Both the position numbers and the translations under genes were made by a program. A DNA stretch of 40,961 nt from Sulfitobacter sp. (lineage in GTDB: Bacteria > Pseudomonadota > Alphaproteobacteria > Rhodobacterales > Rhodobacteraceae): the NCBI GenBank assembly GCA_029252045.1, contig JAQXCD010000043.1:1-40961 (forward strand). Direction: 5' to 3'. Shown piece by piece: positions 7,965 to 39,325 of the stretch. Numbering within the stretch: position 1 is the first letter of the stretch; every line of letters begins with the position of its first letter. The notes beneath the pieces were generated by a model. It searched no databases, was not told the origin of the DNA, and was given only the letters and a program-made list of their open reading frames with translations.

Positions 7965-7977
7965 GACGAAGTGCCGC

Positions 7978-9369: not shown

Positions 9370-9378
9370 AAAAAAGCT

Positions 9379-10441: not shown

Positions 10442-10443
10442 AC

Positions 10444-11472: not shown

Positions 11473-11483
11473 CGGAAGGGTCC

Positions 11484-12134: not shown

Positions 12135-12172
12135 CCCGCACCTGTAGTTCACATAGCGCGGACGGGATTGAG

Positions 12173-12189
12173 TTTATTGGCACAATAAA
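12173..12189. promoter_or_regulatory. Perfect palindrome upstream of the histidine phosphatase gene
   Basis: TTTATTG (12173-12179), centre GCA, and CAATAAA (12183-12189) form a 7+3+7 palindrome in the 69-bp gap between the nitronate-monooxygenase-like gene and the phosphatase gene. The hairpin is AT-rich and not followed by a T-run on the minus strand. This favours an operator or promoter element for the phosphatase-phosphotransferase-IclR operon over a terminator. Confidence 0.4.
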
Positions 12190-12203
12190 GAAGCCGGGAC
12201 GCA

Positions 12204-13196: not shown

Positions 13197-13226
13197 GGCA
13201 TGTCCTGTCTTCATATTGACGGTGAG

Positions 13227-13268
13227 GGGGCGACCAAAACCGCCCCGCTTGTTTGCAAATTGCAATTT
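13227..13268. promoter_or_regulatory. Hairpin and TTGCAA palindrome between thiolase and nitronate-monooxygenase-like genes
   Basis: AAATTGCAATTT (13257-13268) is a perfect 12-bp palindrome directly after the thiolase stop, next to a second TTGCAA. Nearer the downstream gene, GGGGCG/CGCCCC arms can form a 6-bp stem with an 8-nt loop, without a T-run. TTGCAA-rich palindromes recall sites of PhaR- or ScfR/RamB-type regulators of acyl-CoA metabolism; that link is only a resemblance. Confidence 0.35.
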
Positions 13269-14465
13269 TTACAGAACCTCGAAGAGGCCAGCAGCGCCCA
13301 TACCACCGCCCACACACATGGTGCAGACAACGTATTTCGCACCGCGGCGTTTGCCTTCGATCAGGGCATGACCAACCATGCGCGCGCCTGACATGCCGTA
13401 GGGGTGACCGATAGAGATGGCACCACCGTTCACGTTCAGCAGCTCGTCCGGAATACCCAGAACATCGCGCGACTGGATCACCTGCACGGCAAAGGCCTCG
13501 TTCAACTCCCACAGGCCGATGTCTTCGATTTTCAGGCCATGCGCCTTGAGCAGTGGCGGCACGGCATAGATCGGGCCAATACCCATTTCGTCCGGCTCGC
13601 AGCCGGCGGCCATCACACCCATGTAGCGGCCCAGCGGGGCGAGGCCCATTTGCTCGGCCTTCTTGGCTTCCATGATCACCGTGGCAGAGGCGCCATCGGA
13701 AAGCTGGGACGCATTGCCCGCTGTGATGAACTTGCCTTCCTTGATGGTCATGCCGTCCTTGAACACCGGCTGAAGGCCAGAGAGCATTTCAGCAGAGGTG
13801 CCCGGACGGTTGCCCTCGTCCTTGGACAAAGTCACCTCATGCTCGGTGATCTCTTTGGTCTCTTTGTTCTGCACCATCATCATTGTGGTCATCGGCACTA
13901 TCTCTTCGTCGAACTTGCCAGCTTCCTGTGCCTGATGCGTGTTTTCCTGAGAGCGTGCAGCGTATTCATCCTGACGCTCGCGCGACACGTTATAACGCGC
14001 GGCAACGGTCTCGGCTGTTTCCAGCATCGACATGTAGATGTCAGGCTTGTTGGCTTTCAACCAGCCATCTGCCTTCACGCGCATCTCCGGCGTCTGCACC
14101 ATCGAGATGCTCTCGACGCCACCACCGATGACCACATCCATGCCGTCTGTGATCACCTGCTTGGCCGCAGTCGCAATCGCCATCATGCCGGAGGCGCACT
14201 GACGGTCCAACGACATACCGGACACTGTCACAGGCAGACCCGCACGGATCGCCGCCTGACGGGCAATGTTGCCACCGGAGTGACCCTGCTGGAGGGCTGC
14301 GCCCATGATGCAGTCCTGAATGCTGGCCGGATCAACACCGGCACGCTTCACTGCGTTTTCAATCGCATGGGCGGCCAGCGCCTGCGGTGTCGTGTTGTTG
14401 AATGCACCGCGATAGGCTTTGCCAATCGGGGTACGGGCGGTGGATACGATTACTGCGTCACGCAT
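13269..14465 (-). CDS. Thiolase (acetyl-CoA C-acyltransferase)
   Basis: 398 aa, the normal thiolase length. The nucleophile is Cys90 in [11 protein letters not shown]; the histidine motif [10 protein letters not shown] and the C-terminal [13 protein letters not shown] with the second cysteine are present. It cleaves 3-ketoacyl-CoA with CoA to acetyl-CoA plus shortened acyl-CoA, the last step of a beta-oxidation round. The start at 14465 ([15 protein letters not shown]) has an AAGGAGA site; the longer open frame upstream runs into the preceding gene. It is the fifth gene after the two acyl-CoA dehydrogenases and two SDRs, and sequence alone does not separate FadA-like from PhaA-like specificity. 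Confidence 0.95.
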
Positions 14466-14481
14466 GGGTATTCTCCTTGAT

Positions 14482-15405
14482 TTACCAGTCCAGCTTGAGG
14501 CCTTGGGCCTTGGCTGCGTTGAGGGCGTATTTCTTGGTCTGGCCGAATGCATCGCCCAGTTGTTGTTGGTCTTTCGGGTCGCGGATTTGGTCGAACTGCG
14601 CTGCCACCGCTTCGGGAGTGTTGGCGTCGCCTGTCAGCGTGATGCCTTGCGTTTCGTACACCCGCGTTTCCGCATAGCTGCCTGCACCAGCGCCAAGGAT
14701 CACCTGAGACGGCGCATCCTCACTCACCAGATACAGCAGACCGGGGGTAATGGTTTCAGGGGCCAGCAATGCCTGCGCTTCGGCGGGTAGCAGATCAGCG
14801 GTCATGCGGGTGGCCGCAGTCGGGGCCAGCGTATTGACGCGGATATTGTCGCGCGCGCCTTCCATGTGCAGGACATTCATCAGCCCCAGCATCGCCGCTT
14901 TGGCAGCGCCATAGTTGGATTGACCGAAGTTACCATAAAGGCCGGAGGCGGAGGAGGTCAGCACAACGCGCCCGTATTTCTGCGCGCGCATAATGGGCCA
15001 GCAGGCATGTGCCACGTTGGCGGACCCGATCAGATGCACATCAACCACCTTGCGGAACGCGGCCATGTCCATCTTGGCGAAAGTCTTGTCCATCAGAATG
15101 CCCGCGTTGTTAACGCAGATATCAATGCGCCCCCATGCATCCATCGCTTGGGCTATCATGTCCTTCACAGCATCTTCGTCCGAGACATCGGCACCATGCG
15201 CCATCGCCTCGCCGCCCATGGCCTTGATTTCGGCCACGACGCTCAGCGCGGCCTCGGATGAGGTGCCTGTGCCGTCACGCGACACGCCCAGATCGTTGAC
15301 CACAACGCGTGCACCGCGCGCGGCCAAGCCCAAAGCGTGCGACCGGCCAAGGCCCACCCCTGCGCCGGTGACGATGGCAACGCGGTTATCGAAACGAATA
15401 TCCAT
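14482..15405 (-). CDS. SDR-family dehydrogenase, MFE-2-like (3-hydroxyacyl-CoA dehydrogenase candidate)
   Basis: 307 aa. The NAD(P)-binding motif TGAGVGLGR, the [14 protein letters not shown] segment, NNAG and the catalytic YGAAK (with upstream Ser in SSASG) are intact. The VVNDLG region and the length with a C-terminal extension resemble the N-terminal dehydrogenase domain of peroxisomal multifunctional enzyme 2 (HSD17B4), which oxidises (3R)-hydroxyacyl-CoA. A MaoC hydratase encoded at 21402-21872 would supply (3R)-hydroxyacyl-CoA. The start overlaps the preceding stop by one base (TGATG). Confidence 0.9.
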
Positions 15406-16226
15406 CAGTGCAACGCCTGTTCAAAGATGTTGGGACCGGACATAACGTTGATACCGCCAGAGACAGGAATAATCGCACCCGTAACATAGGCACCGCCGCG
15501 CCCGCAGAGGAACAGCATACAGCCGCCGATATCCTCGTCACGGCCCACGCGCTTAAGCGGCACATCCTTGCCCACCTTGCTCCGCGTGTCCTCGTCATGT
15601 GTGGCAAAGGCGGTCATGCGCGAGACAAACGGCCCCGGCGCCAACGCATTGACGGTGATCGCCTCACCCGCCAGTTCCTTGCCCAGAATCCTTGTCATAT
15701 GGTGCACAGCTGCCTTGGACATGGAATAGGAGTAAGCACCATCGCCCATCTCCCGCTCGCCCATGACCGAGCCTACGTTAATCACCCGCGCCGGATCATC
15801 GACAGAACCGCTTGCGCGCAGCATCGGCAACAGCTTTTGCGTGAGGTCGAACATGCCCGCCACGTTGACGTTCATCACCTTTTCCCAAGCCTTGAACGGG
15901 AAATCGCCCAAGGGTGCGCCCCACGTAATGCCTGCATTGTTCATCAGGATATCGAGGCGGTCCGTATGCGCATGCACCGCGGCCACCAGCGCATCAACAC
16001 CCGCTTCGGTGCCCACATCACCCGCAAATCCTATGGCCTTGCCGCTGGCCCCCAATGCGTTCAGCTCTTTCGCTACGGCCTCACAGGCGTCACCCTTGCG
16101 GCTGGCGATCAGCACAGTCGCGCCTGCGCGCATCAGTGCCTCGGCTGCCATCCGGCCAATGCCCGTGGCACCACCAGTGACCAACGCCACCTTACCGTCC
16201 AGTCCAAACAGTGTTTGAATATCCAT
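15405..16226 (-). CDS. SDR-family oxidoreductase
   Basis: 273 aa. Classical SDR motifs: TGGATGIGR cofactor loop, NNAG, VINVGSVMG with the catalytic Ser, YSMSK with Tyr and Lys, and a C-terminal PVSGG. The ATG at 16226 is preferred over the TTG at 16232 because AGGA lies 8 nt upstream. The protein resembles the 3-oxoacyl-ACP reductase/gluconate 5-dehydrogenase branch, a broad group. In this operon it probably oxidises a second hydroxyl of the substrate or its CoA ester. Confidence 0.9.
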   Translation of the reverse strand: MDIQTLFGLDGKVALVTGGATGIGRMAAEALMRAGATVLIASRKGDACEAVAKELNALGASGKAIGFAGDVGTEAGVDALVAAVHAHTDRLDILMNNAGITWGAPLGDFPFKAWEKVMNVNVAGMFDLTQKLLPMLRASGSVDDPARVINVGSVMGEREMGDGAYSYSMSKAAVHHMTRILGKELAGEAITVNALAPGPFVSRMTAFATHDEDTRSKVGKDVPLKRVGRDEDIGGCMLFLCGRGGAYVTGAIIPVSGGINVMSGPNIFEQALH

Positions 16227-16228
16227 GT

Positions 16229-17344
16229 TCAAAATCCTCTCAATGCCGCGACGCGTTCGGCGTGATAGCTGTAATCACCCAGCCATTCCGCCCCAACACG
16301 CGCGCGTTTCATATAAAAACCCATGTCATAGGCATCGGTCATGCCGATCCCGCCATGCATCTGCACACCTTCCTGCACCGCCAGTGTCGCCGTTGCCGTG
16401 GCTTTGGCTTTGGCCAGAGATACTGCCAGTTCTGCATTCTCGGGATCACTGTCCAACATACGGCCCGCGTTGAGAATGGCTGACGCCGTCACTTCCGTCT
16501 CGCACCACAGATGGGCAGCGCGGTGTTGCAGCGCCTGGAAACGCCCGATTTCCGTGCCGAACTGCTTGCGCTCTTTCAGGTAGCCCACGGTCATCCCGAA
16601 AGCACCCGCCGCAAGGCCTGCCATCTCGGCGGCAAGGGCGGCCTGCCCCGCGTTCAGCGCAGGCTTGAGAATTGCCATCGCGCTGTCGACCTGACCCAGA
16701 ACATCCTCGCCCGTGGCTTCGACATCGGCAAAGTCGATCTTGGCCGCGTCACGCGCGTCGATCATGTTGGATTTCGTGCGTGTGATGCCTGCACGGTCAG
16801 CAGGGATATCAAACAGGGTCAACCCCTCGGCAGTGCGCGCCAGCAGCAGCAAACGGTCGGCCATGGCACCATCTACCACAAACGTCTTGTTGCCGGTCAG
16901 CCGGAAGCCGTTGCCATCGGCGCGTGCCTCCATCGCGACAGCATCAGGGTTGTGTTTGATCCCCTCATCCACGGCCAGTGCATAGGTCACATCGCCGCTG
17001 GCAATCCGTGCCAATGCCTCCTGGGCGCGCGCATCACTCACCTGCCGCAGGGCAGTTGCGGCAATCACCGCCGTGCTCAGGAACGGCGACATCACAAGTG
17101 TTTTGCCCATTTCCTGCGCGATCACATTGGCTGCGGCAAAACCCATATCCGAGCCGCCGGCCTCCTCAGGCACCAGCACACCAGCCCAGCCCATATCGGC
17201 CATTTCTTTCCACAGCTTTGCGTCATGGGTTTCCCCCGCATCCCGCATCTTGCGGAACGCACTGACAGGCGCTGCGCCATCCAGAAAACCACGCGCCATA
17301 TCGGCCAGCATCGTCTCTTCTTCGGTCAATACAAGTTTGCTCAT
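16229..17344 (-). CDS. Acyl-CoA dehydrogenase-like subunit lacking the usual catalytic Glu
   Basis: 371 aa FAD-dependent acyl-CoA dehydrogenase fold. It has the N-terminal helical domain (LADMARGFLDGAAP), GWAGVLVPEEAGGSDMG, and the C-terminal VQEGVQMHGGIGMTDAYDMGFYMKRA. The C-terminus then reads GAEWLGDYSYHAERVA, without the YEGT/IEGGT motif that carries the catalytic base. The start ATG at 17344 overlaps the previous stop (ATGA). Pairing with the next-door dehydrogenase, which keeps the Glu, suggests a heteromeric alpha2beta2 enzyme as in the steroid side-chain FadE/ChsE pairs. It desaturates acyl-CoA and passes electrons to ETF. Confidence 0.92.
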   Translation of the reverse strand: MSKLVLTEEETMLADMARGFLDGAAPVSAFRKMRDAGETHDAKLWKEMADMGWAGVLVPEEAGGSDMGFAAANVIAQEMGKTLVMSPFLSTAVIAATALRQVSDARAQEALARIASGDVTYALAVDEGIKHNPDAVAMEARADGNGFRLTGNKTFVVDGAMADRLLLLARTAEGLTLFDIPADRAGITRTKSNMIDARDAAKIDFADVEATGEDVLGQVDSAMAILKPALNAGQAALAAEMAGLAAGAFGMTVGYLKERKQFGTEIGRFQALQHRAAHLWCETEVTASAILNAGRMLDSDPENAELAVSLAKAKATATATLAVQEGVQMHGGIGMTDAYDMGFYMKRARVGAEWLGDYSYHAERVAALRGF

Positions 17345-18510
17345 GCCGGAAGACCCAATACGCGCCGTGATACAATCGACAACATCACTTCGGATGTGCC
17401 ACCTTCGATTGAGTTGGCCTTGGTGCGCAGCCAGTCGCCCGCGCGGTTGCCCACATCCCCGTCCCATTCCAGCGCAGCAGACCCGCCCGCTGTCATCATC
17501 AGCTCATGGCGCTGTTTGTTCAGCTCGGTGCCCATGTATTTCAACATCGCCGAGGCATCGCCCGCGCCCTGCCCCGCTTCGGCTTGGTCTTTGTACCGCT
17601 CCAGCGTCAGACCAATGGCCAGCGCGTCAATTTCACAGCGCATAGCATCAGCGCGCAGGGTTGCATCCAGCGTTTCCATCGTATCGGCCAGAACCGCGCC
17701 CAAGGCACGGCCCCCCCCCGACAGGCCTGCGCCACCGCCCGAGATCATCTCGCGCTCATGCGTCAGCAGATATTTCGCCACGTCCCAGCCGCGGTTTTCG
17801 GTGCCAACAATGCGGAGCTTGGGCACTTTGACATCTGTAAAAAACGTCTCGCAGAAGGGTGAAATGCCGCTGATCATCTTGATCGGCCGCGTCTCCACGC
17901 CTGCGTCTTCCATATCAATCAACAGGAAAGAGATACCAAGATGCTTGGAGGCCTCGCGGTCTGTGCGCACCAGTGCAAAAATCTGATCGGCCTTGTCGGC
18001 ATAAGAGGTCCAGATCTTCTGCCCGTTCACCAGCCAGTGATCGCCTTTGTCCTCCCCGTAGGTCTGGACGTTGGCCAAATCCGATCCCGCACCCGGCTCG
18101 GAGTAGCCCTGACACCAGCGGACTTCACCGCGCGCGATGGGCGGCAAATACTCCAGCTTCTGATCGTGGCTCCCAAAGTGCAACAATGCGGGCCCCAACA
18201 TCCAGATGCCAAAACTCTGCAAGGGCGAGCGGGCGTTGATCCGGCCCATCTCCTCGTGAAAAATCTTTTCCTGATCGCGGGTCAGACCGGCCCCGCCATA
18301 GTCTACAGGCCATGTCGGAACGGTATAGCCTTTGGCTGCGCAGCGCTCCAACCAGTCCTTCTGGGCATCGCTGGTAAAAACCCAATCCTTGCCGCCCCAA
18401 CAAATGCCGTCTTCGGTCATGCCGCCATCACGCATCTCGGCGGGGCAATTTGCCTCCAGCCAGTTGCGCAATTCTGTGCGGAAACCTTCCGCCGATGATG
18501 CTTCAGCCAT
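17341..18510 (-). CDS. Acyl-CoA dehydrogenase, catalytic subunit
   Basis: 389 aa. FAD/substrate motifs CQGYSEPGAGSDLANVQT and WTSYADKADQIFALVRT are clear, and the C-terminal SIEGGTSEVMLSIVSRRVLG carries the catalytic-type Glu369. The start ATG at 18510 has a strong GGGAGGA site; the longer open frame crosses the promoter. It is the first gene of the minus-strand beta-oxidation operon. The opposite-strand MDR gene starts 138 bp away, and a palindrome overlaps both candidate promoters. Confidence 0.94.
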   Translation of the reverse strand: MAEASSAEGFRTELRNWLEANCPAEMRDGGMTEDGICWGGKDWVFTSDAQKDWLERCAAKGYTVPTWPVDYGGAGLTRDQEKIFHEEMGRINARSPLQSFGIWMLGPALLHFGSHDQKLEYLPPIARGEVRWCQGYSEPGAGSDLANVQTYGEDKGDHWLVNGQKIWTSYADKADQIFALVRTDREASKHLGISFLLIDMEDAGVETRPIKMISGISPFCETFFTDVKVPKLRIVGTENRGWDVAKYLLTHEREMISGGGAGLSGGGRALGAVLADTMETLDATLRADAMRCEIDALAIGLTLERYKDQAEAGQGAGDASAMLKYMGTELNKQRHELMMTAGGSAALEWDGDVGNRAGDWLRTKANSIEGGTSEVMLSIVSRRVLGLPA

Positions 18511-18566
18511 CCCGTGTCCTCCCGTTAAACGCGTGGTGCCTCTTGCGGGCGACCATTCCGCACAGC

Positions 18567-18619
18567 AGAATTGCATTTCGAAATTCGATTGACAAGACTG
18601 AGTTGCACTGGCCCATTAA
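18567..18619. promoter_or_regulatory. Divergent promoter with embedded palindromic operator
   Basis: On the minus strand TTGTCA (18590-18595) and AATTCT (18567-18572) are spaced by 17 bp, giving a promoter about 50 nt before the first acyl-CoA dehydrogenase gene. On the plus strand TTGACA (18589-18594) with a poor -10 near 18613-18619 could serve the MDR gene. An imperfect 22-bp palindrome (18569-18590, core ATTTCGAAAT at 18575-18584, 18 of 22 positions symmetric) fills the minus-strand spacer and touches both -35 hexamers. One regulator bound here could control both directions. Confidence 0.5.
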
Positions 18620-30048: not shown

Positions 30049-31001
30049 CCGCACTTTTGACCGTCGAAAACCTCTCTGTCCGGTTCCCGATCAAACGGGG
30101 CTGGGGCAAGACCAGCTGGCTTTATGCCGTGGACGATGTGTCCTTTGAGGTCCAGCGCGGCGAGACATTGGCGATTGTAGGCGAAAGCGGATCCGGCAAA
30201 ACCACTGCCGCCCTTGGCGTGGCGCGTCTGGTCGGTAACTCAGGGGGCAAGGTTGACCTGGCTGGCGAGGATTTTCTGGCGCTGGAGCCGGAAGCGCTGC
30301 GCCGTGCCCGCGCCAAAGTACAGGTGATTTTCCAAGACCCCTATTCATCGCTCAACCCGCGCCTGCGCGCCGAAGCGATTGTGCGCGAGCCGATGGACAG
30401 CATCGGCACCCTACCTGTAGACCAGCGCGCCGCGCGTGTGGCCGAGCTGTTTGAGCAGGTCGGCCTGCGCCCCGAACAGATGAAACTGTTTCCGCACCAG
30501 TTCTCCGGCGGTCAGCGCCAACGCATCGGCATCGCCCGCGCACTGGCAACCAATCCGGAACTGATTATTTGTGACGAAGCGGTCAGTGCGCTTGATGTTG
30601 CCGTGCAGGCGCAAATCCTCAATCTGCTGCGCCGCTTGCAGCGCGACCTTGGCCTGACTTACCTGTTCATCAGCCATGATCTGGGCGTTGTCCAACACAT
30701 GAGCGATCACATCGCGGTCATGTATATGGGCAAGATCGTCGAATACGCGGACCGTCTGTCGCTGTTCAACTCCCCGCGCCATCCCTACACCAAAGCTCTG
30801 CTCTCTGCGGTCCCGTCGGTGGACCAGAAACGCAAGGTTGAGCGCTTGTTGATCCCCGGTGATCCGCCTGATCCGTTGAACCCGCCCAGAGGCTGCCGCT
30901 TTGCTTCACGCTGCCACTTTGTCGAAGACGCCTGCCGCAGCGAACAACCACCCCTCACCGAGGTGGCTGCACATCACAAAGTGGCCTGCATCAAAGCCTA
31001 G
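30045..31001 (+). CDS. Dipeptide-type ABC transporter ATPase (DppF-like)
   Basis: 318 aa. Walker A GESGSGKTT, Q-loop VQVIFQDPYSSLNP, signature FSGGQRQRIGIA, Walker B LIICDEAVSALDV (Ala replaces the usual Pro after DE), H-loop ISHDL. The C-terminal FASRCHFVEDAC cysteine motif matches its partner ATPase. The last gene of the importer operon; its TAG stop overlaps the convergent tupA stop within one CTAG. Confidence 0.94.
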   Translation: MTALLTVENLSVRFPIKRGWGKTSWLYAVDDVSFEVQRGETLAIVGESGSGKTTAALGVARLVGNSGGKVDLAGEDFLALEPEALRRARAKVQVIFQDPYSSLNPRLRAEAIVREPMDSIGTLPVDQRAARVAELFEQVGLRPEQMKLFPHQFSGGQRQRIGIARALATNPELIICDEAVSALDVAVQAQILNLLRRLQRDLGLTYLFISHDLGVVQHMSDHIAVMYMGKIVEYADRLSLFNSPRHPYTKALLSAVPSVDQKRKVERLLIPGDPPDPLNPPRGCRFASRCHFVEDACRSEQPPLTEVAAHHKVACIKA

Positions 31002-31801
31002 TTTGTGGCGTTGAAGGTAAACAGCGTCTCACCGTTGATGGTATAGCCATTGATCAGCTCCGCCGCGCGCGGGCTGGTCAGCCATTCTTCCAGCTTTGCC
31101 GCCAGTTCGCCTTTGACATGGGCGTGCTTCTCAACACTCACCGGAAGGTATGCGTATTGGTTAAAGAGCACCGGATCACCCGCGAACAGCAGTGCCAGCG
31201 TGCCCTTGTTGCCAAAATTCAGCCAGCTGGCGCGGTCCGACAGGATATAGGCATCCATTCCCGCAGCCGTGTTCAGCGCGGCGCCCATGCCAGATCCGGT
31301 GGCATTGTACCAAGTACCAAACTGCTCTGGTTCAAGCGTCGTCGCACGCCACAAGCTCAGTTCTTTCTTGTGGGTGCCGCTGTCATCGCCCCGGCTGACA
31401 AAAGTCGCCTCGGCAGTGGCAATCGCCTGCAAAGCCTCGGCTGCGGTTTTGGCAGCGCCCACTTGGGCTGCGTCCGCCGCTGGGCCGATCACAACAAAAT
31501 CGTTGTACATAATCTCTCGGCGGTGCGGGCCGAAACCGCCCTCCACAAACGCCTCTTCCGCTTTGCGGCTGTGCACAAGGATCGCATCCACGTCACCCGC
31601 TTCGCCCAGCTTCAGCGCCTGACCGGTACCAACCACGATCAACTGCACCTCAAGGCCCAAATCCTCGGCAGCGGCCGGCAGCAGAATTTCCGCCAACCCC
31701 GAGTTGTGGAAGGAGGTTGTAACTGCCATGCGCATGACATCCTGCGCGCTGGCAACACTGGCCCAAACCATCAGGGCCGATGACAATAATATCCGCTTCA
31801 T
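30998..31801 (-). CDS. tupA: Tungstate-type ABC transporter substrate-binding protein (TupA-like)
   Basis: 267 aa periplasmic oxyanion-binding protein. A signal peptide (MKRILLSSALMVWASVASA) precedes the mature start QDVMRMAVTTSFHNSGLAEI; the TTS..SGL motif and RGDDSGTHKKELSLW are the TupA oxyanion-pocket signatures, as distinct from ModA. The start overlaps the tupC stop (ATGA), and GAGGAG lies 10 nt upstream. The gene order here is tupB-tupC-tupA, with the binding protein last. It would supply tungstate (or molybdate) for tungsto/molybdoenzymes; none is encoded in the window. Confidence 0.88.
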   Translation of the reverse strand: MKRILLSSALMVWASVASAQDVMRMAVTTSFHNSGLAEILLPAAAEDLGLEVQLIVVGTGQALKLGEAGDVDAILVHSRKAEEAFVEGGFGPHRREIMYNDFVVIGPAADAAQVGAAKTAAEALQAIATAEATFVSRGDDSGTHKKELSLWRATTLEPEQFGTWYNATGSGMGAALNTAAGMDAYILSDRASWLNFGNKGTLALLFAGDPVLFNQYAYLPVSVEKHAHVKGELAAKLEEWLTSPRAAELINGYTINGETLFTFNATN

Positions 31802-32508
31802 TCCACGATATCTCCTCTTAGGAATGCACGCGCCTGCAAGGTTGCAGGAGCTTCGAAAAACTTGCGCGCGGCGCTGTGCTCCAGCACTTGACCGTGCAGC
31901 AAAAATAGCACCTCATCTGCCAGACGCCGTGCCTGACCCAGATCATGCGTCGACAAGATGAGGCGGGTACCGGACGCAAGTGCGGCCCGCAAAACGGCCT
32001 CTACCTCACGCGTGGCGCGGCCATCGAGTGCCGCCGTCGGCTCATCCAGAAACAACAACTGCGGCTCAATGATCATCGCGCGGGCCAGCGCCAGCTTTTG
32101 CTGCTCGCCGCCCGACAGCACTGTGGCGGGACGGTCCAACATAGCGTCCAGCCCGACACGAGCCGCCCAATCCTCGGCCATGAATTGCGCCACCGACCTT
32201 GAAGTGCCGCGCAGACGCAGGGGATAGGTCAGATTTTCCAGCACCGAGCGGCGCAGCATCACGGGCCGCTGGAACACAAACGCCTGCGCACTGCAGGCTT
32301 CGGCCTGCGTGCAGGCCCAATCGATCCGGCCATGGGTCAGCCGCGCCGCCCCATGCAACAGCCGCAGCAGCGTTGTCTTGCCAGAGCCGTTTGGCCCCAT
32401 CACCACAGTGGCCCCCACCCCCGCCAGATCCAGATCAACCGGACCGACAAGCACTTTACCGCGCCGCGTCGTCTGCGCCCCGCGCACTGTGAGAGGAAAC
32501 AGGATCAC
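31798..32508 (-). CDS. tupC: Tungstate-type ABC transporter ATPase (TupC-like)
   Basis: 236 aa. Walker A MGPNGSGKTT, signature LSGGEQQKLALARA, Walker B LLFLDEPTAALDG, H-loop STHDL. The GTG start at 32508 is chosen because it overlaps the tupB stop (GTGA) and an AGGAGG site lies about 7 nt upstream; the GTG at 32550 lies inside tupB. Drives the TupB permease. Confidence 0.9.
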   Translation of the reverse strand: MILFPLTVRGAQTTRRGKVLVGPVDLDLAGVGATVVMGPNGSGKTTLLRLLHGAARLTHGRIDWACTQAEACSAQAFVFQRPVMLRRSVLENLTYPLRLRGTSRSVAQFMAEDWAARVGLDAMLDRPATVLSGGEQQKLALARAMIIEPQLLFLDEPTAALDGRATREVEAVLRAALASGTRLILSTHDLGQARRLADEVLFLLHGQVLEHSAARKFFEAPATLQARAFLRGDIVE

Positions 32509-33209
32509 CAGCGGCCCTCCTGCTCGGTGCGGCCCAGCCAGTGGATGCACAGGTTCACGGTAATCGCCAACCCGATCAGGACAAAGCCCAGCCCAAGCGC
32601 CAGCGCAAAATCCCCCCTGCCCGTCTCCAGCGCAATGGCCGTTGTCAGCACGCGGGTGGCATGTTCAATATTCCCGCCCACGATCATGATCGCGCCAACC
32701 TCTCCAATTGCACGGCCAAATCCGGCCAAAGATGCCGTCAGCAGGGCGCGCCGCGCATCCCACAGCAGCGTCCGAATTTTCTGGCTCTGGGTGACGTTCA
32801 TGGAAATCAGCAGATCGTGATATTCACTCCACAAATCGCGGAGCGACTGATGCGCCACGCTGGCAATCAGCGGCACGATGATAATGACCTGTGCGATGAT
32901 CATGGCAGAAGGCGTGAACAACAGCCCCAGCACACCAAACGGCCCCGACCGCGACAGCAGCACATAAACCGCCAGACCCACCACAACCGGCGGCAAGCCC
33001 ATCAAGGCATTCAGCACCGCAATCACACTGCGTCGCCAGCGAAACCGCCGCACCGCCAGAAAGGCCGCCAGCGGCAGCGCAATAGCAGAACCGATTGCAA
33101 GTGCCGTCAGAGTGACCTGCAAGGAGCGCAGCGTGATTTCCACAAGGTCACTGTCCAGCGTGACAAGCAGCCGGAACGCCTCTGATAATCCTGCCCAAAG
33201 ATCGCCCAT
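32505..33209 (-). CDS. tupB: Tungstate-type ABC transporter permease (TupB-like)
   Basis: 234 aa inner-membrane permease. The start SEAFRLLVTLDSDLVEITLRSL, the helix AVLNALMGLPPVVVGLAVYV and the EAA-type loop AGFGRAIGEVGAIMIVGGNI are typical of TupB. The ATG at 33209 is chosen although its ribosome site is weak; the open frame extends upstream without family similarity. First gene of tupBCA and 133 bp downstream of the GntR gene on the same strand. Confidence 0.88.
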   Translation of the reverse strand: MGDLWAGLSEAFRLLVTLDSDLVEITLRSLQVTLTALAIGSAIALPLAAFLAVRRFRWRRSVIAVLNALMGLPPVVVGLAVYVLLSRSGPFGVLGLLFTPSAMIIAQVIIIVPLIASVAHQSLRDLWSEYHDLLISMNVTQSQKIRTLLWDARRALLTASLAGFGRAIGEVGAIMIVGGNIEHATRVLTTAIALETGRGDFALALGLGFVLIGLAITVNLCIHWLGRTEQEGRW

Positions 33210-33342
33210 GCGCCCGCTGTCATCCCGATATCGCCCAACTGCCCGCACCCTAGACCGACTGCCATGACTACAGGAACCGGAAAAGCGCCAATTCCCACAC
33301 AAAAAAGCGCCCTAGTGGCATGGGGTTACGGTTAGTCTCGGG
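33210..33342 (-). promoter_or_regulatory. Gap between the GntR gene and tupB
   Basis: The 133-bp gap should hold the tupBCA promoter. AAAAGCGCC occurs twice in direct orientation (33281-33289 and 33303-33311), 22 bp or about two helical turns apart. On the minus strand the second copy gives GGCGCTTTTTT, a T-run without a convincing stem. No clear ModE-type palindrome was seen. Confidence 0.3.
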
Positions 33343-33993
33343 TTAATCGAAAGAGGCAAGCAAATCCATTGCCGTTACATGGTCAAATTGGACATGCCTC
33401 ATCATCAGCTCTTCGGCCACATCACTTTTGCGGTCCAGAATGGCCTCCAGAATGGTCGCATGCTCCAGCGCCGAGGCCTGAACGGCGCCGACAGTGCGAT
33501 ACCGCGCGCGGTAATAGGCCATCAGCTTGCGTGCGTTCGCCTTGATCATCTCTAACAGAAACGGATTGCCAGAGGCCTCACCCACCAGCCGGTGGAAATC
33601 AAGGTTGAGTTGGTAATAGGCCGCCGGTTCGGTATCGCCGAATTGCGCATGATGGTGGGCACAGGCCTCGACAACCTCGCGCAGGGCCTTGCCGCGCGCG
33701 GGGGACAATCTCCGTGCCGCAAGGCCCGCCGCCTGCCCTTCCAGCTTGGCGTGGACCTCCAGAATGGCCAGAAATTCCTCCAGCGTCGGTTTGAACACAA
33801 CCACACCCTTGCGCGGCTGACGCGTTACCAACCCCACGGCCTCCAGCTGTAACAAGGCTTCGCGCAACGGCGTACGCGACAAGCCCATCTCGGCCAGAAG
33901 CGCATCTTCTGCGATCACATCACCGGGGTGTAGTTTGCCCGCGTCGATCATGCCCAGAATGGTGTCGATTACGGTTCGGGTCTGCGATGCCAC
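33343..33993 (-). CDS. GntR-family regulator, FCD subfamily (PipR-like position)
   Basis: 216 aa. N-terminal winged helix (GDVIAEDALLAEMGLSRTPLREALLQLE) with the GntR signature, then an all-helical FCD effector domain whose metal/ligand residues include LNLDFHRLV and the later His in HATILEAILDRK. A GTG start at 33993, 3 bp after the ferredoxin stop, is used. As last gene of the P450-GS-ferredoxin operon it probably senses the substrate or a product and acts at the divergent promoter 36881-36965. Mycobacterial pipR, also GntR-type, controls a P450 operon of the same make-up. Confidence 0.93.
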   Translation of the reverse strand: MASQTRTVIDTILGMIDAGKLHPGDVIAEDALLAEMGLSRTPLREALLQLEAVGLVTRQPRKGVVVFKPTLEEFLAILEVHAKLEGQAAGLAARRLSPARGKALREVVEACAHHHAQFGDTEPAAYYQLNLDFHRLVGEASGNPFLLEMIKANARKLMAYYRARYRTVGAVQASALEHATILEAILDRKSDVAEELMMRHVQFDHVTAMDLLASFD

Positions 33994-33996
33994 GCG

Positions 33997-34311
33997 TCAA
34001 TCCGCCGGAACGGTCAGGGTAATTCCGTCCAAATCCGCACTCATCGTGATCTGGCAGGACAGGCGGCTGGCATCTGTCCGCTCGACCTCGGTGGCGTCCA
34101 GCATCGCGTCTTCGAAATCACCCACAGCAGCGACTTTGCCCAACCATTCGGGATCGACAAAAACATGACAGGTCGCACAAGACAGACAGCCGCCACATGC
34201 ACCCTCGATGTTGGGGATATCGTTAGCGACAGCCGCTTCCATCAGGTTGGTGCCAATTGCGACATCGGCGGTTTTGGTGCTGCCGTCCGGCAGTGTCCAC
34301 GTAGCTTTCAT
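33997..34311 (-). CDS. [2Fe-2S] ferredoxin, putidaredoxin/adrenodoxin type
   Basis: 104 aa electron carrier. Cluster ligands are Cys39, Cys45, Cys48 and Cys86 (ACGGCLSCATCHVF and RLSCQI), the same numbering as in putidaredoxin; an extra Cys42 lies in the loop. The ATG at 34311 is chosen by family length; the upstream open frame only reflects the overlapping region of the ligase gene. It should donate electrons to the P450 encoded by the first gene of the operon. No ferredoxin reductase is encoded nearby, so a housekeeping reductase must serve. Confidence 0.95.
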   Translation of the reverse strand: MKATWTLPDGSTKTADVAIGTNLMEAAVANDIPNIEGACGGCLSCATCHVFVDPEWLGKVAAVGDFEDAMLDATEVERTDASRLSCQITMSADLDGITLTVPAD

Positions 34312-34321
34312 TGGGGGTTCC

Positions 34322-35611
34322 TCACAAAAACGGGATGTAGAAATCGCGCAGGGCGGTGTGATCCATGTCGGCAGTTTTATCCACCTCCGCTTCGCGCATG
34401 AACAGCTGGTTGTCCACCAGCATCCGGCCCACGGCATCCGCCAGAACGGAATCGGCACGCAGATCGTCGATAGCGCCGGCAAGGTCGGCGGCCACCCCTT
34501 CAGTCGCATCGGTCAGCTCGAAACCGTCTCCGGTTTCACGGTCGGGCAATGCATAACCTTCCTGCACGCCCAGCAATGCCGCCTGCAAAACGGCAGCAAC
34601 CGCAATATAGGGGTTGGCCGACCCGTCCGCCATCCGGTGCTCCAGCCGCGACTTGGCGCCGCCTTCGGCACTGACGCGAGTGGTCACATTGCGGTGGTCC
34701 CCGCCCCAGTTACGCCAATAACCCGACAGGCTGGCCGGTTGCAGCCGCTTATAGCTCATCGCGGTTGGCGCAATCAGCCCTGCCAACCCGCGGTGATGCT
34801 CGACCAGTCCGGCCACACAGCCCCGGGCCAGATCGTTCATATGGTCCGGCCCGCTTTTGCCATTCAGGCTCAGCGCGTTATTGCCGCTAGCATCGGTGAA
34901 GGAAAAGTTGATGTGCATGCCCGAGCCGCCCGCACCCTCGATCGGTTTGGGCAGGAAGCTGAGGACAATGCCATGCTCCAACGCGACTTCCCGCGCCAGC
35001 AGGCGGAACAGGATAATGTCATCGACAGCACGCAATGCGTCATCAAACGTCAGCGTATATTCGAACTGCGGCGCGTCATACTCCGCCGTGATCATGTCCA
35101 GCTTGAACCCCAGCGCCGTGGCCCGCGCCCAGATCGCATCGTTGAACCCGCGTGGGTCGGTTGTGGGACCGGTCCCATAGACAACCGCGCCCGGTGCGTC
35201 ATAGGGCACCAGCCTGCCGTCCGCTTCACGTTGAAAGGCAAAGGCCTCCAGCTCGATCCCGATTTTCGGCGTCAGCCCGCGCACTTCCCATGCGGCAATC
35301 GCGCGTTTGAGCGCCCCACGCGGGCAGAGCTCAAGCGGCACGCCACTGGTGTCATAGAGATCCCCCAGCACAATCTTGGTGCCCGCATGCCAACTGTCGC
35401 GAATGTCTGCCGCACGCCAGCGCAACTCCATGTCCGGCAGGCCCTCCAGCATCATGGAGCCGGGGGAAGGCAACAGATCACGGTCAAAATGCACCCCGAA
35501 GGTAGAGCGGCAGAACCGCGTCTCGTTATCCCCGATTTTGGACGCAGGCAGGTACTTGCCCCGCATCAGGCTCAGGTGGTCGCAAAACAGCGCGCGCAGA
35601 CGGTCGGACAT
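34322..35611 (-). CDS. Glutamine-synthetase-like ligase (putative gamma-glutamyl-amine synthetase, PipC-like)
   Basis: 429 aa GS-fold protein. Recognisable are PKIGIELEAFAF (first metal-site Glu), AEYDAPQFEYTL, the ATP-site GGSGMHINFSF, and the glutamate-binding RLEHRMADGSANPYIAVAAV. The length and variant motifs set it apart from GlnA and place it with GS-like enzymes that ligate glutamate to amines (PuuA, IpuC, GMA synthetase, AtdA1 types). Between P450 and ferredoxin genes with 10-12 bp gaps, it most likely makes a gamma-glutamyl conjugate of the amine substrate or product. The exact amine is unknown. Confidence 0.9.
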   Translation of the reverse strand: MSDRLRALFCDHLSLMRGKYLPASKIGDNETRFCRSTFGVHFDRDLLPSPGSMMLEGLPDMELRWRAADIRDSWHAGTKIVLGDLYDTSGVPLELCPRGALKRAIAAWEVRGLTPKIGIELEAFAFQREADGRLVPYDAPGAVVYGTGPTTDPRGFNDAIWARATALGFKLDMITAEYDAPQFEYTLTFDDALRAVDDIILFRLLAREVALEHGIVLSFLPKPIEGAGGSGMHINFSFTDASGNNALSLNGKSGPDHMNDLARGCVAGLVEHHRGLAGLIAPTAMSYKRLQPASLSGYWRNWGGDHRNVTTRVSAEGGAKSRLEHRMADGSANPYIAVAAVLQAALLGVQEGYALPDRETGDGFELTDATEGVAADLAGAIDDLRADSVLADAVGRMLVDNQLFMREAEVDKTADMDHTALRDFYIPFL

Positions 35612-35623
35612 TTGGAAACTCCC

Positions 35624-36880
35624 TCAGGACAAATGGACAGTGACGGGCAGGGATTTGATCCCCCCCACAAAATTGGAACGCAAGAACTGGTGCGGGCCTG
35701 CGGCCTCGATCCTGCTGATGCGTTTGGACAATTCTTCGAACAACACACGCACCTCAAGGCGCGCCAGCCACATGCCCAGACAGACATGCGGGCCACCCTG
35801 ACCAAAGGACAGATGTTTGTTTGCAGGGCGTGACAGGTCAACGCGGTACGGATCATCCAACGCGGCCTCGTCCCTGTTGCCGGAGGCAAACCAGTACACA
35901 ACCTTGTCGCCCGCCTTGATGGTTTTGCCGTGCAGCTCCACATCGGCCATCGCAGTCCGGCGGAAGTAAAGCGCGGGCGTCGCCCAGCGGATAATCTCGT
36001 CCGGCGCTGTGTCCCAGACCGCGCCGCTTTTCATCCGCCCCAGCAGTTCGGGCTGATGGCACATGGCCTGCAACCCTGCCGCGATGGAATACCGCGTCGT
36101 GTCATTACCCGCCGCCACCAGCAGACAAAAGAAATTGCGGAACTCGGTGTCGGAAATCACGCTGCCATCCGGACCGGGCTGCATGATCAGGTGCAAAACG
36201 CCGTTGGTGTCACCAGCCGCATTTTTCCGCGCCATCAGATCTTTGGCGTAGGCATACAGCTCGGCCCCCGCAGGGGAGTTGAACGGCATCATGCGGAATT
36301 CATCGGTTGTCATTTTGTCCAGCACATGATCGGTAAAATCGGGATCGGTATTGGCAATCAGCGCATCGCCTTTCTCGACCAACCACGGCAAATCCTCATC
36401 AGGCGTGCCAAGGATGCGGCCCAGCATTTGCATCGGCAACTCGCGGGCAATCAGCTTGGTTGCGTCAAAAGTGCCCTGCGCCAGTGCCTTGTCCAGAATG
36501 GTGACACACAGATCCCTGATCTGCTCTTCAAAGCCCGCGATCACCGTTTTTGAAAACGCTTTGGCCACCTTGATGCGCGCCATCATATGTTCGCGCCCGT
36601 CCGTCTCCTGAAAGGTCCGGCGGGCGATGACTTCTTCGGGGGTCTGATCCTCGATGCGGATGCCATGGGCAGAGGAGAACAGCTCGCTCTGCTTGTTCAA
36701 CGCCAAAATATCCGCGTGCCGCGTGACCGACCAAAAGCCCTGCCCCTGCGCGTATGGCGTCCAGCACACGGGATCATCGCGGCGCATTCGGGCAAATGTA
36801 TTATGCGGCGCGCCACCGGCGAAACTGTCATGTGAGCTCAGATCGGCATAGCCGTCATCCTGTGGTTTCCAAACGGTCAT
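35624..36880 (-). CDS. Cytochrome P450 (class I, PipA-like position)
   Basis: 418 aa soluble bacterial P450. I-helix AAGNDTTRYSIA (acid-Thr pair), K-helix ExxR in DEIIRWATP, and the haem-binding loop FGQGGPHVCLG with Cys367 as thiolate ligand. Length and lack of a membrane anchor fit class I enzymes fed by a [2Fe-2S] ferredoxin, which is encoded two genes downstream. First gene of the operon, with a TATAAT -10-like hexamer on its strand at 36905-36910. It could hydroxylate the carbon next to nitrogen in a cyclic or secondary amine, by analogy with PipA; that substrate is inference. Confidence 0.95.
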   Translation of the reverse strand: MTVWKPQDDGYADLSSHDSFAGGAPHNTFARMRRDDPVCWTPYAQGQGFWSVTRHADILALNKQSELFSSAHGIRIEDQTPEEVIARRTFQETDGREHMMARIKVAKAFSKTVIAGFEEQIRDLCVTILDKALAQGTFDATKLIARELPMQMLGRILGTPDEDLPWLVEKGDALIANTDPDFTDHVLDKMTTDEFRMMPFNSPAGAELYAYAKDLMARKNAAGDTNGVLHLIMQPGPDGSVISDTEFRNFFCLLVAAGNDTTRYSIAAGLQAMCHQPELLGRMKSGAVWDTAPDEIIRWATPALYFRRTAMADVELHGKTIKAGDKVVYWFASGNRDEAALDDPYRVDLSRPANKHLSFGQGGPHVCLGMWLARLEVRVLFEELSKRISRIEAAGPHQFLRSNFVGGIKSLPVTVHLS

Positions 36881-36965
36881 CTCACCCTCGCTTCGCCTAT
36901 ATCAATTATATTTAAGCTGTGTAAAAATATACTAAGGAGCCTGCCTCACATGTAAAGGAAAATTT
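36881..36965. promoter_or_regulatory. Divergent promoter of the P450 operon and the amidotransferase gene
   Basis: This 85-bp gap is AT-rich within a GC-rich region. A 7-bp perfect inverted repeat (TATATTT at 36907-36913, AAATATA at 36925-36931, 11-nt spacer) lies at its centre. TATAAT is on the minus strand at 36905-36910 and TATACT on the plus strand at 36928-36933, so the repeat overlaps -10 elements in both directions. It is a likely target of the GntR protein of the operon. AAAGGA is the amidotransferase ribosome site. Confidence 0.5.
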
Positions 36966-37679
36966 ATGCACCTCGCGATCCTGATGGCAAACACCGATGA
37001 CAGCCCCTTCGGGCGAGCACAGCCTGATGACGGGCAGAAGTTCTCCGCCCTGCTCCACCGCGTGCGCCCCGACTGGACGTTTGAGGTGTTTTTCGTCAAA
37101 GACGGCATCTTTCCCGCCTCTTTGAATTTTGACGGGCTGCTGATCACCGGCAGCCCTGCGTCTGTCCACGATGGCGCCGACTGGATCGCGCAGCTGGAGG
37201 CATTGGTGCGCCGCGCGGCGGCTGCCAAGGTACCCATGTTCGGTGCCTGCTTTGGTCATCAAATAATCGCACGGGCCTTGGGCGCGCAGGTGGGGCCAAA
37301 CCCGAATGGCTGGGTTCTGGGCCGAATAGAGACACAATTCGAGCCGGATGCAGAAACCGTCCCCTTCTATGCAGCACATAAAGAGCAGGTGCTGGACCTG
37401 CCCGCAGATGCCCGCATCGTCGCGCGCACCGCAGATTGCGAGATTGCCGGCTTTGCGATCGGCTCACACATCCTGACAACGCAGTATCATCCTGAAATGA
37501 CACATGATTTTGTCGCGGCTTTACTCGTCGCATTTGCGGAAGAGATTGGGGAAGATATCACAGCTTCAGCCGCCCAAACGCTGGACCGCGCCACAGACAT
37601 CACCGCATTGGCCGAATGGATGGCAACATTCTACGAGACCGCCAAACCTCAGGCGCAGACCAGCTCGCCCAGCACCTGA
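36966..37679 (+). CDS. Class I glutamine amidotransferase-like hydrolase
   Basis: 237 aa GATase1-fold protein. The triad is complete: Cys95 in FGACFGHQ, His176 and Glu178 in QYHPEM. It has no synthetase domain, so it is a stand-alone GuaA-like/YfeJ-like GATase. Its divergent neighbour is a GS-like ligase in a P450 operon. In aniline degradation a GATase-like protein (AtdA2/TdnT type) accompanies the GS-like AtdA1/TdnQ and hydrolyses the gamma-glutamyl conjugate, so a gamma-glutamyl-amide hydrolase is the preferred inference. Its 3' end overlaps the convergent thioesterase gene by 31 bp. Confidence 0.88.
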   Translation: MHLAILMANTDDSPFGRAQPDDGQKFSALLHRVRPDWTFEVFFVKDGIFPASLNFDGLLITGSPASVHDGADWIAQLEALVRRAAAAKVPMFGACFGHQIIARALGAQVGPNPNGWVLGRIETQFEPDAETVPFYAAHKEQVLDLPADARIVARTADCEIAGFAIGSHILTTQYHPEMTHDFVAALLVAFAEEIGEDITASAAQTLDRATDITALAEWMATFYETAKPQAQTSSPST

Positions 37680-38086
37680 CGTGCACGCGCGTCCATGGGA
37701 CGGGGCTTGCGCGTGGCACGGTCCACATGAACATGGATGAAATGCCCCGCCGCTGCCGCCACGTCGCTGTCGCCCCGAAACAGCGCAACATTATACGTCA
37801 CCGAAGAAGACCCCAGCTTGGCCACGCGCAGCCCTGCTGTGATCACATCGGGGAAACCTATTTCTGAGAAATAGCTGCAACCGGATTCAACCACCAGAAA
37901 GGCGGTTTCGCTGTTGTGGAGCTCCAGCAGCCCCTCTTCCAGCAGATGCCCGTTCACCACTGTATCGAACAGCTGGTAATGCACCGCGTTGTTCATATGC
38001 CCATAGAGGTCATTGTCAAACCAGCGGGTTGTCAGGGTCTTGAACACCGGAAATTCCGCGCGGGTCGGGGCGGTGGCGCGGCTCAC
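37649..38086 (-). CDS. Hotdog acyl-CoA thioesterase (YbgC/4-hydroxybenzoyl-CoA thioesterase-like)
   Basis: 145 aa single hotdog domain. TTRWFDNDLYGHMNNAVHYQ carries the catalytic-type Asp and the HMNNA motif of the family. The GTG at 38086 overlaps the alcohol dehydrogenase stop (GTGA) and has GAGGA 6 nt upstream; another GTG lies one codon further up. Probably hydrolyses a short-chain or aromatic acyl-CoA in the cytoplasm. The last gene of the minus-strand group that also encodes the dehydrogenase and a membrane transporter. Confidence 0.9.
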   Translation of the reverse strand: MSRATAPTRAEFPVFKTLTTRWFDNDLYGHMNNAVHYQLFDTVVNGHLLEEGLLELHNSETAFLVVESGCSYFSEIGFPDVITAGLRVAKLGSSSVTYNVALFRGDSDVAAAAGHFIHVHVDRATRKPRPMDARARQVLGELVCA

Positions 38087-39252
38087 CACGCATCCTCGTA
38101 GATTTGCAGTATGTCCGCCTCGGTCAGCGGGCGGGGATTATTGACCAGCAGGCGGGTCTGTTTGATCGCATCGCGCGCCAGCAGCGCCAGACTGTCCTGC
38201 CCGATATCCACATCGCGCAGACGTGGCGGCAGGCCGCATTTCAGCGCCAGATCGGCCAACGCATCGCAAAAGGCCAACGCGCGCTCAGATTTAGACAAAA
38301 CGGCCAAATCCGGAAAGGCCGCAATAGCAGTGTCGGCATAGGCATCGGCCGAAGTGACCGCGTTGAAGCGCAGTACATAGGGCAGAACCAGCGCGTTAGA
38401 CAAACCATGTGGTATCTTGAAATGCCCGCCAATCGGATAGGCCAGCGCATGTACTGCCGCCACCGGAGAATTTGCAAACGCCTGCCCCGCCAGCATTGAT
38501 CCCAGCATCAGGTCCGACCGCGCCGCGATATTGCTGCCATCCTTCACCCCGGCCAACAAGGACGCCCCCAGCAGCCGCAAGGCCTCCAGCGCCAGCGTTC
38601 TGGACATCGGGTTATTATTGGCACTGGCCGAGGCATAAGCCTCGATCGCGTGAACCATAGCGTCAATGCCCGTCGCCGCCGTGATGGGTGCCGACAGCCC
38701 GACCGTCAGGTCAGGGTCCAGCAACGCCAGATCGGGCAGCAAGACAGGGGCCACCACGCCCATCTTCTCGTGGCTGGCCGTGGTGACAATCGCAATCGGT
38801 GTCACCTCTGACCCCGTACCGGAGGTGGTGGGGATCAGAATCAGCGGCAGCCGCACGCCTGTCGCTTGCCCGACCCCGTAAATATCCTCGATCTTCTCGT
38901 CGCCAATAGAAAGATAGGCCACCAGCTTGGCCACATCCAGCGATGATCCCCCGCCCAGCCCGATAATGGACGCAGCGCCCATCGCTTGGGCCTGTGCCAC
39001 AGCGGCAAGTACGGTTGCCACGGAGGGGTCCGCCTCAACATCGCTGAACAGTGCAACTTCGACGCCACCGCTGCGCAACGCCTCTTCCGCTTGCGCCACG
39101 ATGCCCGTGGCGATCAGCCCCTTATCGGTGACAATCAGGCATTTACCGCCCACCAAGCCGCCGGCGACATCCACCAGACTGCCCAAAACACCACACCCAA
39201 ACTGAATGCGGGGTGCTGTCGCAAATGAAAACTGGGAGAGCGTCTGGGTCAT
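38083..39252 (-). CDS. Iron-containing (group III) alcohol dehydrogenase
   Basis: 389 aa. NAD-binding GLGGGSSLDVAKLVAYL, PTTSGTGSEVTPIAIV, and the metal-site residues in GIDAMVHAIEAYAS and HALAYPIGGHFKIPHG are intact. The ATG at 39252 (MTQTLSQFSFATAPRIQFG) is the family start; the open frame continues upstream without similarity. Such enzymes interconvert alcohols and aldehydes or hydroxy acids and semialdehydes with NAD. Near the P450/gamma-glutamyl cluster it could oxidise the hydroxylated carbon skeleton, but it may be unrelated. Confidence 0.93.
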   Translation of the reverse strand: MTQTLSQFSFATAPRIQFGCGVLGSLVDVAGGLVGGKCLIVTDKGLIATGIVAQAEEALRSGGVEVALFSDVEADPSVATVLAAVAQAQAMGAASIIGLGGGSSLDVAKLVAYLSIGDEKIEDIYGVGQATGVRLPLILIPTTSGTGSEVTPIAIVTTASHEKMGVVAPVLLPDLALLDPDLTVGLSAPITAATGIDAMVHAIEAYASASANNNPMSRTLALEALRLLGASLLAGVKDGSNIAARSDLMLGSMLAGQAFANSPVAAVHALAYPIGGHFKIPHGLSNALVLPYVLRFNAVTSADAYADTAIAAFPDLAVLSKSERALAFCDALADLALKCGLPPRLRDVDIGQDSLALLARDAIKQTRLLVNNPRPLTEADILQIYEDAW

Positions 39253-39325
39253 GGGGTTTCCGTTCAAATATACATCAATGACCAAGGGAAACACAGGCAG
39301 GCGCATGGCGTCAATCCATCGCGCC

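Follow-up and report, generated by a model that had tools for sequence, protein, structure and literature searches.

The stretch of DNA analyzed here (the window) is the whole 40,961-base contig JAQXCD010000043.1 of a draft Sulfitobacter genome (3.08 Mb, 90% complete). It carries an operon of four genes, encoding a cytochrome P450, a glutamine synthetase (GS)-like protein, a ferredoxin, and a GntR-type regulator, which are separated by gaps of 12, 10, and 3 bp. A gene for a class-I amidotransferase-fold protein (GAT) diverges from the operon 85 bp upstream of the P450 gene. The features of the unit are as follows:

35624-36880, minus strand: cytochrome P450, 418 amino acids (Pfam p450); class I, with heme motif FGQGGPHVCLG (Cys367), I-helix motif AAGNDTT, and ExxR
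34322-35611, minus strand: GS-like protein, 429 amino acids (Pfam Gln-synt_C), proposed gamma-glutamyl-amine ligase
33997-34311, minus strand: 2Fe-2S ferredoxin of the putidaredoxin/adrenodoxin type, 104 amino acids (Pfam Fer2)
33343-33993, minus strand: GntR/FCD regulator, 216 amino acids, GTG start (Pfam GntR and FCD)
36966-37679, plus strand: class-I amidotransferase-fold protein (Pfam GATase), proposed gamma-glutamyl-amide hydrolase
36881-36965, no strand: intergenic region between the P450 operon and the divergent amidotransferase gene; AT-rich words lie upstream of the P450 gene in relatives

An initial annotation of this DNA had described four genes with 3-12 bp gaps, Cys367 as the heme ligand of the P450, and ferredoxin cysteines at positions 39, 45, 48, and 86. 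The coordinates, gaps, and Pfam domains agree with that description, and the ferredoxin has a further cysteine at position 42. The divergent amidotransferase-fold gene was not part of it. The four-gene operon is real, and the unit comprises five genes once this gene is included; no ferredoxin reductase gene was seen within the operon. Judged from sequence, the unit is best explained as serving the catabolism of an aromatic amine of the phenethyl type, or of the corresponding amino acid, with tyramine or L-tyrosine the likeliest substrates, and we give this reading roughly even chances. The genes, their conservation, their linkage, and their co-occurrence are observed directly; from these we infer the substrate and the reactions.

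The search for this neighborhood suggested by the initial annotation found the unit in many relatives. The GS-like protein was matched in 72 of 394 genomes of the family, its own included (E ≤ 1e-80). Two sets of loci, which overlap in some genomes and include some short contigs, were compared by tblastn with preset identity thresholds: 74 loci (72 places from family genomes, excluding the window, and two plasmids) and 80 named loci (the best 80 of at least 543 relatives). The P450 was matched in the same stretch as the GS-like gene at 70/74 and 78/80 loci respectively, so the pairing of the two is not due to chance. The amidotransferase was matched at 66/74 and 78/80 loci, the regulator at 39/74 and 66/80, and the ferredoxin at 35/74 and 52/80. 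All five genes occur together at loci L117, L118, and L033, and four of them (no ferredoxin match) at L119 and L120. The named loci outside the Rhodobacterales include Oricola, Nitratireductor, and Ahrensia. The relatives listed carry generic names, for example “glutamine synthetase family protein” or “cytochrome P450”; of the listed GS relatives with a name, the closest is from an uncultured Sulfitobacter (89%).

The GS-like protein appears not to be a typical glutamine synthetase. It scores highest on the NCBIfam model for type III GS, with 180 bits (cut-off 470), and reaches 177 bits on the PuuA model GGputSyn (cut-off 650) and 152 bits on the GlnA model (cut-off 429). The genome encodes five further PF00120 proteins, one of them GlnA-like, and the GS-like protein is 29% identical to this paralogue over 212 residues. 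In the alignment, FDGSS and GFEAPV of the paralogue stand opposite FCRST and ASLSGY, respectively. The ammonium-site residues of the paralogue, which we take to be those corresponding to Asp50 and the flap residue Glu327 (Salmonella numbering), are thus absent. Retained are GIELEAF, E177/E184, GSGMH, R289, R307/R312, and RLEHR, which are presumably the metal- and glutamate-binding Glu/His/Arg motifs of GS-fold ligases.

A tree built from 18 GS proteins places the GS-like protein in a clade of five rows with support of 100/100, although support at the deep forks of the tree is weak (77/71). One split, supported at 97/95, places this clade, the Streptomyces canus GS, and two paralogues from the same genome opposite a 10-row set that holds IpuC. 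One of these paralogues is the GlnA-like protein, on a long branch. The tree by itself is therefore compatible with kinship to GlnA. The initial annotation had taken a firm placement among true glutamine synthetases as evidence against its proposal; the protein instead falls in a clade of its own, though on the GlnA-like side of the split. A true glutamine synthetase is disfavored by the low model scores and the missing ammonium-site residues, despite the weak deep forks. The earlier proposal that the ligase gamma-glutamylates an amine is supported by the gene set, the separate clade, and the ammonium site, and less so by the weak deep placement.

The amidotransferase-fold protein has gamma-glutamyl peptidase 1 as its closest solved structure (9k7i, E 6e-16) and retains the motifs GACFGHQ and QYHPE. 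The best solved matches of the P450 are CYP125MRCA, CYP268A2, CYP124, and CYP126. Grouping with terpene or fatty-acid hydroxylases, together with no amine phenotype, was to count against the initial annotation, and these nearest solved relatives supply part of that. An AlphaFold model of the P450 built from seven sequences was poor, with a mean predicted local distance difference test score of 59.5. The P450 is 57.4% identical to that of Novosphingobium EMRT-2, 42.7% to that of Streptomyces canus, 38% to that of Sagittula, and 37% to that of Mesorhizobium, and the clusters of all four also hold GS genes. In S. canus, the P450 and GS genes adjoin an annotated 3,4-dihydroxyphenylacetate 2,3-dioxygenase; in Novosphingobium, they adjoin matches to this dioxygenase and three of its neighbors, the matching dioxygenase being annotated there as catechol 1,2-dioxygenase.

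Other clusters of this kind were also seen. On a plasmid of Sagittula stellata (L116, 6920-10227), a GS-GAT-P450 cluster with a related P450 and a different GS lineage adjoins salicylyl-CoA 5-hydroxylase-like and aromatic dioxygenase genes; it may represent a second case in which this glutamylation/P450 logic serves aromatic amines. A Mesorhizobium loti plasmid carries a related P450, a GS, and a gamma-glutamyl hydrolase-family gene, with no hpa genes annotated, and a Rhodococcus opacus plasmid carries another GS cluster.

The genes linked to the unit in relatives point to aromatic amines rather than N-heterocycles. In Ruegeria sp. TM1040, an FkbM methyltransferase gene comes next after the P450 and GS genes, and beyond it lie genes for a class III aminotransferase, an IclR regulator, a tripartite tricarboxylate transporter, and a PuuC/KauB-like aldehyde dehydrogenase (ALDH). 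Matches to these neighbors are common in the fetched stretches: the aminotransferase at 35/74 and 46/80 loci, TctC at 38/74 and 46/80, the ALDH at 29/74 and 37/80, and IclR at 30/74 and 45/80. At L101, L098, and L096, ALDH-c14-TctA-TctC-GAT-P450-GS forms a contiguous run on one strand, with an ALDH 61-63% identical to that of TM1040; L092 has the same run with the aminotransferase in place of the ALDH. The product of c14 has no Pfam match and is taken as TctB from its position and look. A UPF0261/Tm-1-like protein is encoded after the ALDH of the linked transporter cluster at L111 (5139-6506, minus strand) and L031 (21394-22626).

Genes of homoprotocatechuate cleavage (hpa) and an aromatic amino-acid decarboxylase-like gene are also found beside the unit. 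At L098, neighboring genes encode HpaE and HpaD, both scoring above the curated cut-offs, and also a decarboxylase-like protein and HpaF-, HpaG-, and HpaH-like proteins that score below theirs; at L043, they encode a decarboxylase-like protein and, again below cut-off, an HpaI-like one. In Shimia aestuarii (L123), matches to HpaF, D, G, H, and I lie within 19 kb together with the unit, the aminotransferase, the transporter, and the ALDH, and at L165 the set HpaF-E-D-decarboxylase-G-H-I adjoins the GAT, P450, and GS genes. At least one hpa or decarboxylase-like gene is present in the fetched stretch at 15/74 and 21/80 loci; these genes may precede or follow the unit, and their order varies. HpaD is near the GS gene at six loci compared to 0.28 expected, under a rough uniform model and with loci that are not independent. 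With this aromatic context, neither the piperidine or pyrrolidine substrate nor the P450 attack on the C-H next to nitrogen proposed in the initial annotation is supported.

The genome of the window itself carries such genes on other contigs. On contig C1, the aminotransferase is matched at 73% and TctC at 70%, with TctA, TctB, ALDH, and IclR alongside. Contig C53 carries HpaF-like, HpaE, HpaD, decarboxylase, HpaG-like, and HpaH-like genes. HpaD (398.8 bits, cut-off 321.4) and HpaE (800.2 bits, cut-off 638.35) exceed their curated cut-offs; HpaF, HpaG, and HpaH are best or near-best matches that fall below theirs (53.6/215, 144.5/276.4, and 350.0/351.5 bits, respectively). The closest solved structure to the decarboxylase is 7xin, a 3,4-dihydroxyphenylalanine (DOPA) decarboxylase. 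No HpaB was detected in this 90% complete genome, with no PF03241 matches and no TIGR02309 match at E ≤ 1e-60. A sulfatase or phosphoric/sulfuric ester hydrolase-like gene (below curated cut-offs) adjoins the HpaF-like gene on C53 (L231, 13627-15336) and perhaps serves sulfated phenolics.

Across the 394 family genomes, the GS-like gene co-occurs with the aromatic genes. The aminotransferase (E ≤ 1e-170) is present in 70/72 genomes with the GS-like gene and 85/322 without it (Fisher p 3e-31), and HpaD (E ≤ 1e-80) in 62/72 and 61/322, respectively (p 3e-27), the p-values being uncorrected for phylogeny or genome size. Seven of the ten genomes with the GS-like gene and no HpaD have HpaE above its cut-off, in a count limited to genomes with the GS-like gene. 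An HpaB-like control (E ≤ 1e-60) gave 10/72 and 27/322 (p 0.18). In our reading, the aminotransferase-ALDH-hpa set forms a core that handles dopamine or DOPA, and the GS-P450-GAT-ferredoxin unit is an upstream extension of it.

A mechanism can be proposed by analogy with the Ipu pathway, in which isopropylamine is glutamylated, the amide is hydroxylated by a P450, and the product is released by an amidotransferase (PMC6776027). Transferred to an aromatic amine, this logic would place ring hydroxylation before release. The GS-like ligase would couple the gamma-carboxyl group of glutamate to the amine, as its catalytic motifs suggest. The P450, via the ferredoxin and an unlinked reductase, would then hydroxylate the gamma-glutamylated compound on its ring, giving a catechol. 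The amidotransferase-fold protein, on the basis of its closest structure and motifs, would cleave the gamma-glutamyl amide to yield dopamine or L-DOPA; the latter, if released, may be converted to dopamine by the decarboxylase. The linked class III aminotransferase would convert dopamine to 3,4-dihydroxyphenylacetaldehyde, the PuuC-like ALDH would oxidize this to homoprotocatechuate, and HpaD and later enzymes would cleave the ring. GntR presumably represses the divergent promoters.

Either tyramine or tyrosine could be the acceptor, and either order is workable, given the likeness of the hydrolase to a gamma-glutamyl peptidase and the presence of a decarboxylase. Glutamylation, P450 oxidation, and deglutamylation of some aromatic amine is probable. 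That the oxidation is a ring hydroxylation of tyramine or tyrosine is plausible at somewhat less than even chances. More tentative still is the complete Rhodobacterales route, in which glutamate would be a disposable handle, the P450 would meta-hydroxylate the tethered phenol, the handle would be removed, and dopamine would pass to homoprotocatechuate.

Several observations weigh against use of tyramine or tyrosine. No aromatic gene is adjacent to the unit in the window, such genes being on other contigs, and the fetched stretches of 59/74 and 59/80 loci lack hpa genes. At L097 and L099, a GS of the same clade immediately follows TctC, and the stretch shown has neither a P450 nor a GAT. Import of tyramine is not an obvious role for a carboxylate-type transporter. 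The best NCBIfam model for the decarboxylase is L-2,4-diaminobutyrate decarboxylase, at 136 bits against a cut-off of 900, and a decarboxylase specific for DOPA would yield dopamine without any P450. The co-occurrence p-values share the lack of correction already stated, three of the ten genomes with the GS-like gene and no HpaD also lack HpaE, and 47 genomes have the aminotransferase and HpaD without the GS-like gene. In addition, HpaB-like genes are not rarer where the GS-like gene is present, as they occur in 10/62 HpaD-positive genomes with it and 12/61 without it (p 0.64). The HpaB-1 cut-off was exceeded in five of the 394 genomes, all five of which have HpaD and three the GS-like gene. 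The idea that the P450 replaces HpaBC predicted an anticorrelation of HpaB with the unit; this was tested and not supported, so replacement is unproven. HpaB-1 is rare in the family either way.

Alternative explanations differ in the substrate or in the role of the ligase. The unit may serve another aromatic amine (phenethylamine, octopamine, N-methylated tyramine, aminobenzoate, or a dopamine derivative), with a P450 that is not a phenol ring hydroxylase. We consider this a minority possibility. In its favor, the linkage is to ring cleavage in general, paaA is matched in 4/74 and 14/80 stretches, and the Sagittula GS-GAT-P450 genes lie among salicylyl-CoA hydroxylase and aromatic dioxygenase genes. 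The specific neighbors that repeat, however, are HpaD/HpaE and the aromatic amino-acid decarboxylase-like gene. An ordinary glutamine synthetase with a coincidental or detoxifying P450 is highly improbable. The PF00120 domain with intact catalytic motifs and the position on the GlnA-like side of the tree would fit it, but the genome has a GlnA-like protein among its other PF00120 members, the GlnA ammonium-site residues are absent, and the P450 recurs at nearly all of the 74 loci.

Two readings use the same kinds of gene for non-aromatic substrates. The Mycobacterium pipRABC and mor sets comprise genes for GntR, P450, ferredoxin, and GS-like proteins and serve in piperidine, pyrrolidine, and morpholine use; the mor ferredoxin is a small 3Fe-4S type, and the pip P450 belongs to the CYP151 family. 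In a comparable system, the P450 would oxidize the carbon next to the nitrogen of a cyclic secondary amine such as pyrrolidine, piperidine, or morpholine, and the resulting amino-aldehyde would be gamma-glutamylated, oxidized by the PuuC-like ALDH, and deglutamylated. The PuuC/KauB-like ALDH in the linked run would suit gamma-glutamyl-aminobutanal, and the likeness to pipRABC recognized in the initial annotation stands in that genes for a GntR regulator, a P450, a ferredoxin, and a GS-like protein are clustered. In a comparison made by gene set, however, gene order, the amidotransferase, and the aromatic-catabolism linkage all differ here. The ferredoxin is also of the Fer2 2Fe-2S type, whereas the actinobacterial P450-GS sets compared carry a different short ferredoxin. 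N-heterocycle use would leave the linkage to HpaD and the decarboxylase without explanation. Given the aromatic setting in relatives, it is retained only as an unlikely rival.

Slightly less likely again is that a small branched alkylamine is gamma-glutamylated, hydroxylated at a methyl group by the P450, and freed as an amino alcohol, on which the iron-containing alcohol dehydrogenase encoded in the window (38083-39306) might then act. The GS, P450, ferredoxin, and amidotransferase match the content of the Paenarthrobacter TC1 ipu cluster, and the nearest named P450s include the methyl-branched lipid hydroxylase CYP124. On the other hand, the P450 is only 26.7% identical to that of TC1, 26.2% to that of Microbacterium, and 28.3% to that of Aminobacter, the GS-like protein is outside the IpuC set (29% identity), and the alcohol dehydrogenase was not found at the loci of eight near relatives searched, some of them short. 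Orthology of the ligase and P450 to Ipu is ruled out by the GS tree and P450 identity. A homarine-related idea was dropped after a literature look-up gave nothing.

The tyramine or tyrosine unit proposed here shares features with several characterized systems. In its gene set it appears closer to Ipu, including its amidotransferase, than to pipRABC, although its P450 and ligase are not Ipu orthologues. Ipu (Pseudomonas KIE171 and Paenarthrobacter aurescens TC1) has the GS-like ligase, P450, ferredoxin, and amidotransferase, and the glutamylate-hydroxylate-deglutamylate logic suggested here (PMC6776027). The window unit differs from it in the GS clade, the ferredoxin type, the associated genes, and the lack of a linked ferredoxin reductase. 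The Puu system (PuuA, PuuC, PuuD) resembles it in combining a gamma-glutamyl ligase, an aldehyde dehydrogenase, and an amidotransferase-type hydrolase, but the PuuA model score is far below cut-off, and a P450 and an aromatic pathway replace the amine oxidase. In aniline degradation, the GS-like and amidotransferase-like pair AtdA1/AtdA2 acts ahead of ring oxidation; the ring oxidation there is by a Rieske dioxygenase. The hpa meta-cleavage pathway is shared through HpaD and HpaE, which some relatives encode in physical linkage with the unit; the difference is the lack of an HpaB match and the proposed entry through gamma-glutamylated intermediates and a P450.

If correct, this reading would name a function for an uncharacterized GS-like clade, whose GS is present in 72/394 family genomes, and for its P450, and would account for a path from aromatic amines to homoprotocatechuate in a genome with no detectable HpaB. 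It would also extend gamma-glutamylation-dependent amine catabolism, known from Ipu, to an aromatic amine, with gamma-glutamylation serving as a handle for P450 aromatic hydroxylation. Certain plant P450s are known to hydroxylate phenolics only when these are tethered, and the glutamate-handle route would be a bacterial catabolic counterpart. No P450 catabolic route through gamma-glutamyl-tyramine or gamma-glutamyl-dopamine in bacteria was found in titles or abstract starts of the open-access papers listed by searches on this subject, in agreement with the earlier remark that such systems are little described.

Candidate regulatory sequences were found upstream of the P450 gene. The word CATATTTA (either strand) occurs in 87/139 upstream sequences, its exact form being absent from the window, and the palindrome CATANNTATG in 38/139. 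These AT-rich words are a candidate GntR operator. A sequence scan found four promoter-like sites compared to 1.6 expected, and five terminator-like sites compared to 5.2 expected.

Other genes surround the unit. A TupA/TupB-like tungstate-type ATP-binding cassette (ABC) transporter is encoded directly 3' of the GntR gene (30998-33302, minus strand). Both this tungstate-type transporter and a nearby one of peptide type recur at L118 but were not detected at L117, L033, L119, or L120, so we did not count their genes in the unit. The amidotransferase gene is adjoined by a 4HBT thioesterase gene (37649-38089, minus strand), likewise not found at the eight near relatives' loci, and by the alcohol dehydrogenase gene. 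Further away, positions 1040-18576 encode an acetoacetate-CoA ligase, a Liv/Urt-type ABC transporter, an IclR regulator, a thiolase, short-chain dehydrogenases/reductases, and two pimeloyl-CoA-dehydrogenase-like acyl-CoA dehydrogenases, which suggests a separate acyl-CoA catabolic cluster.

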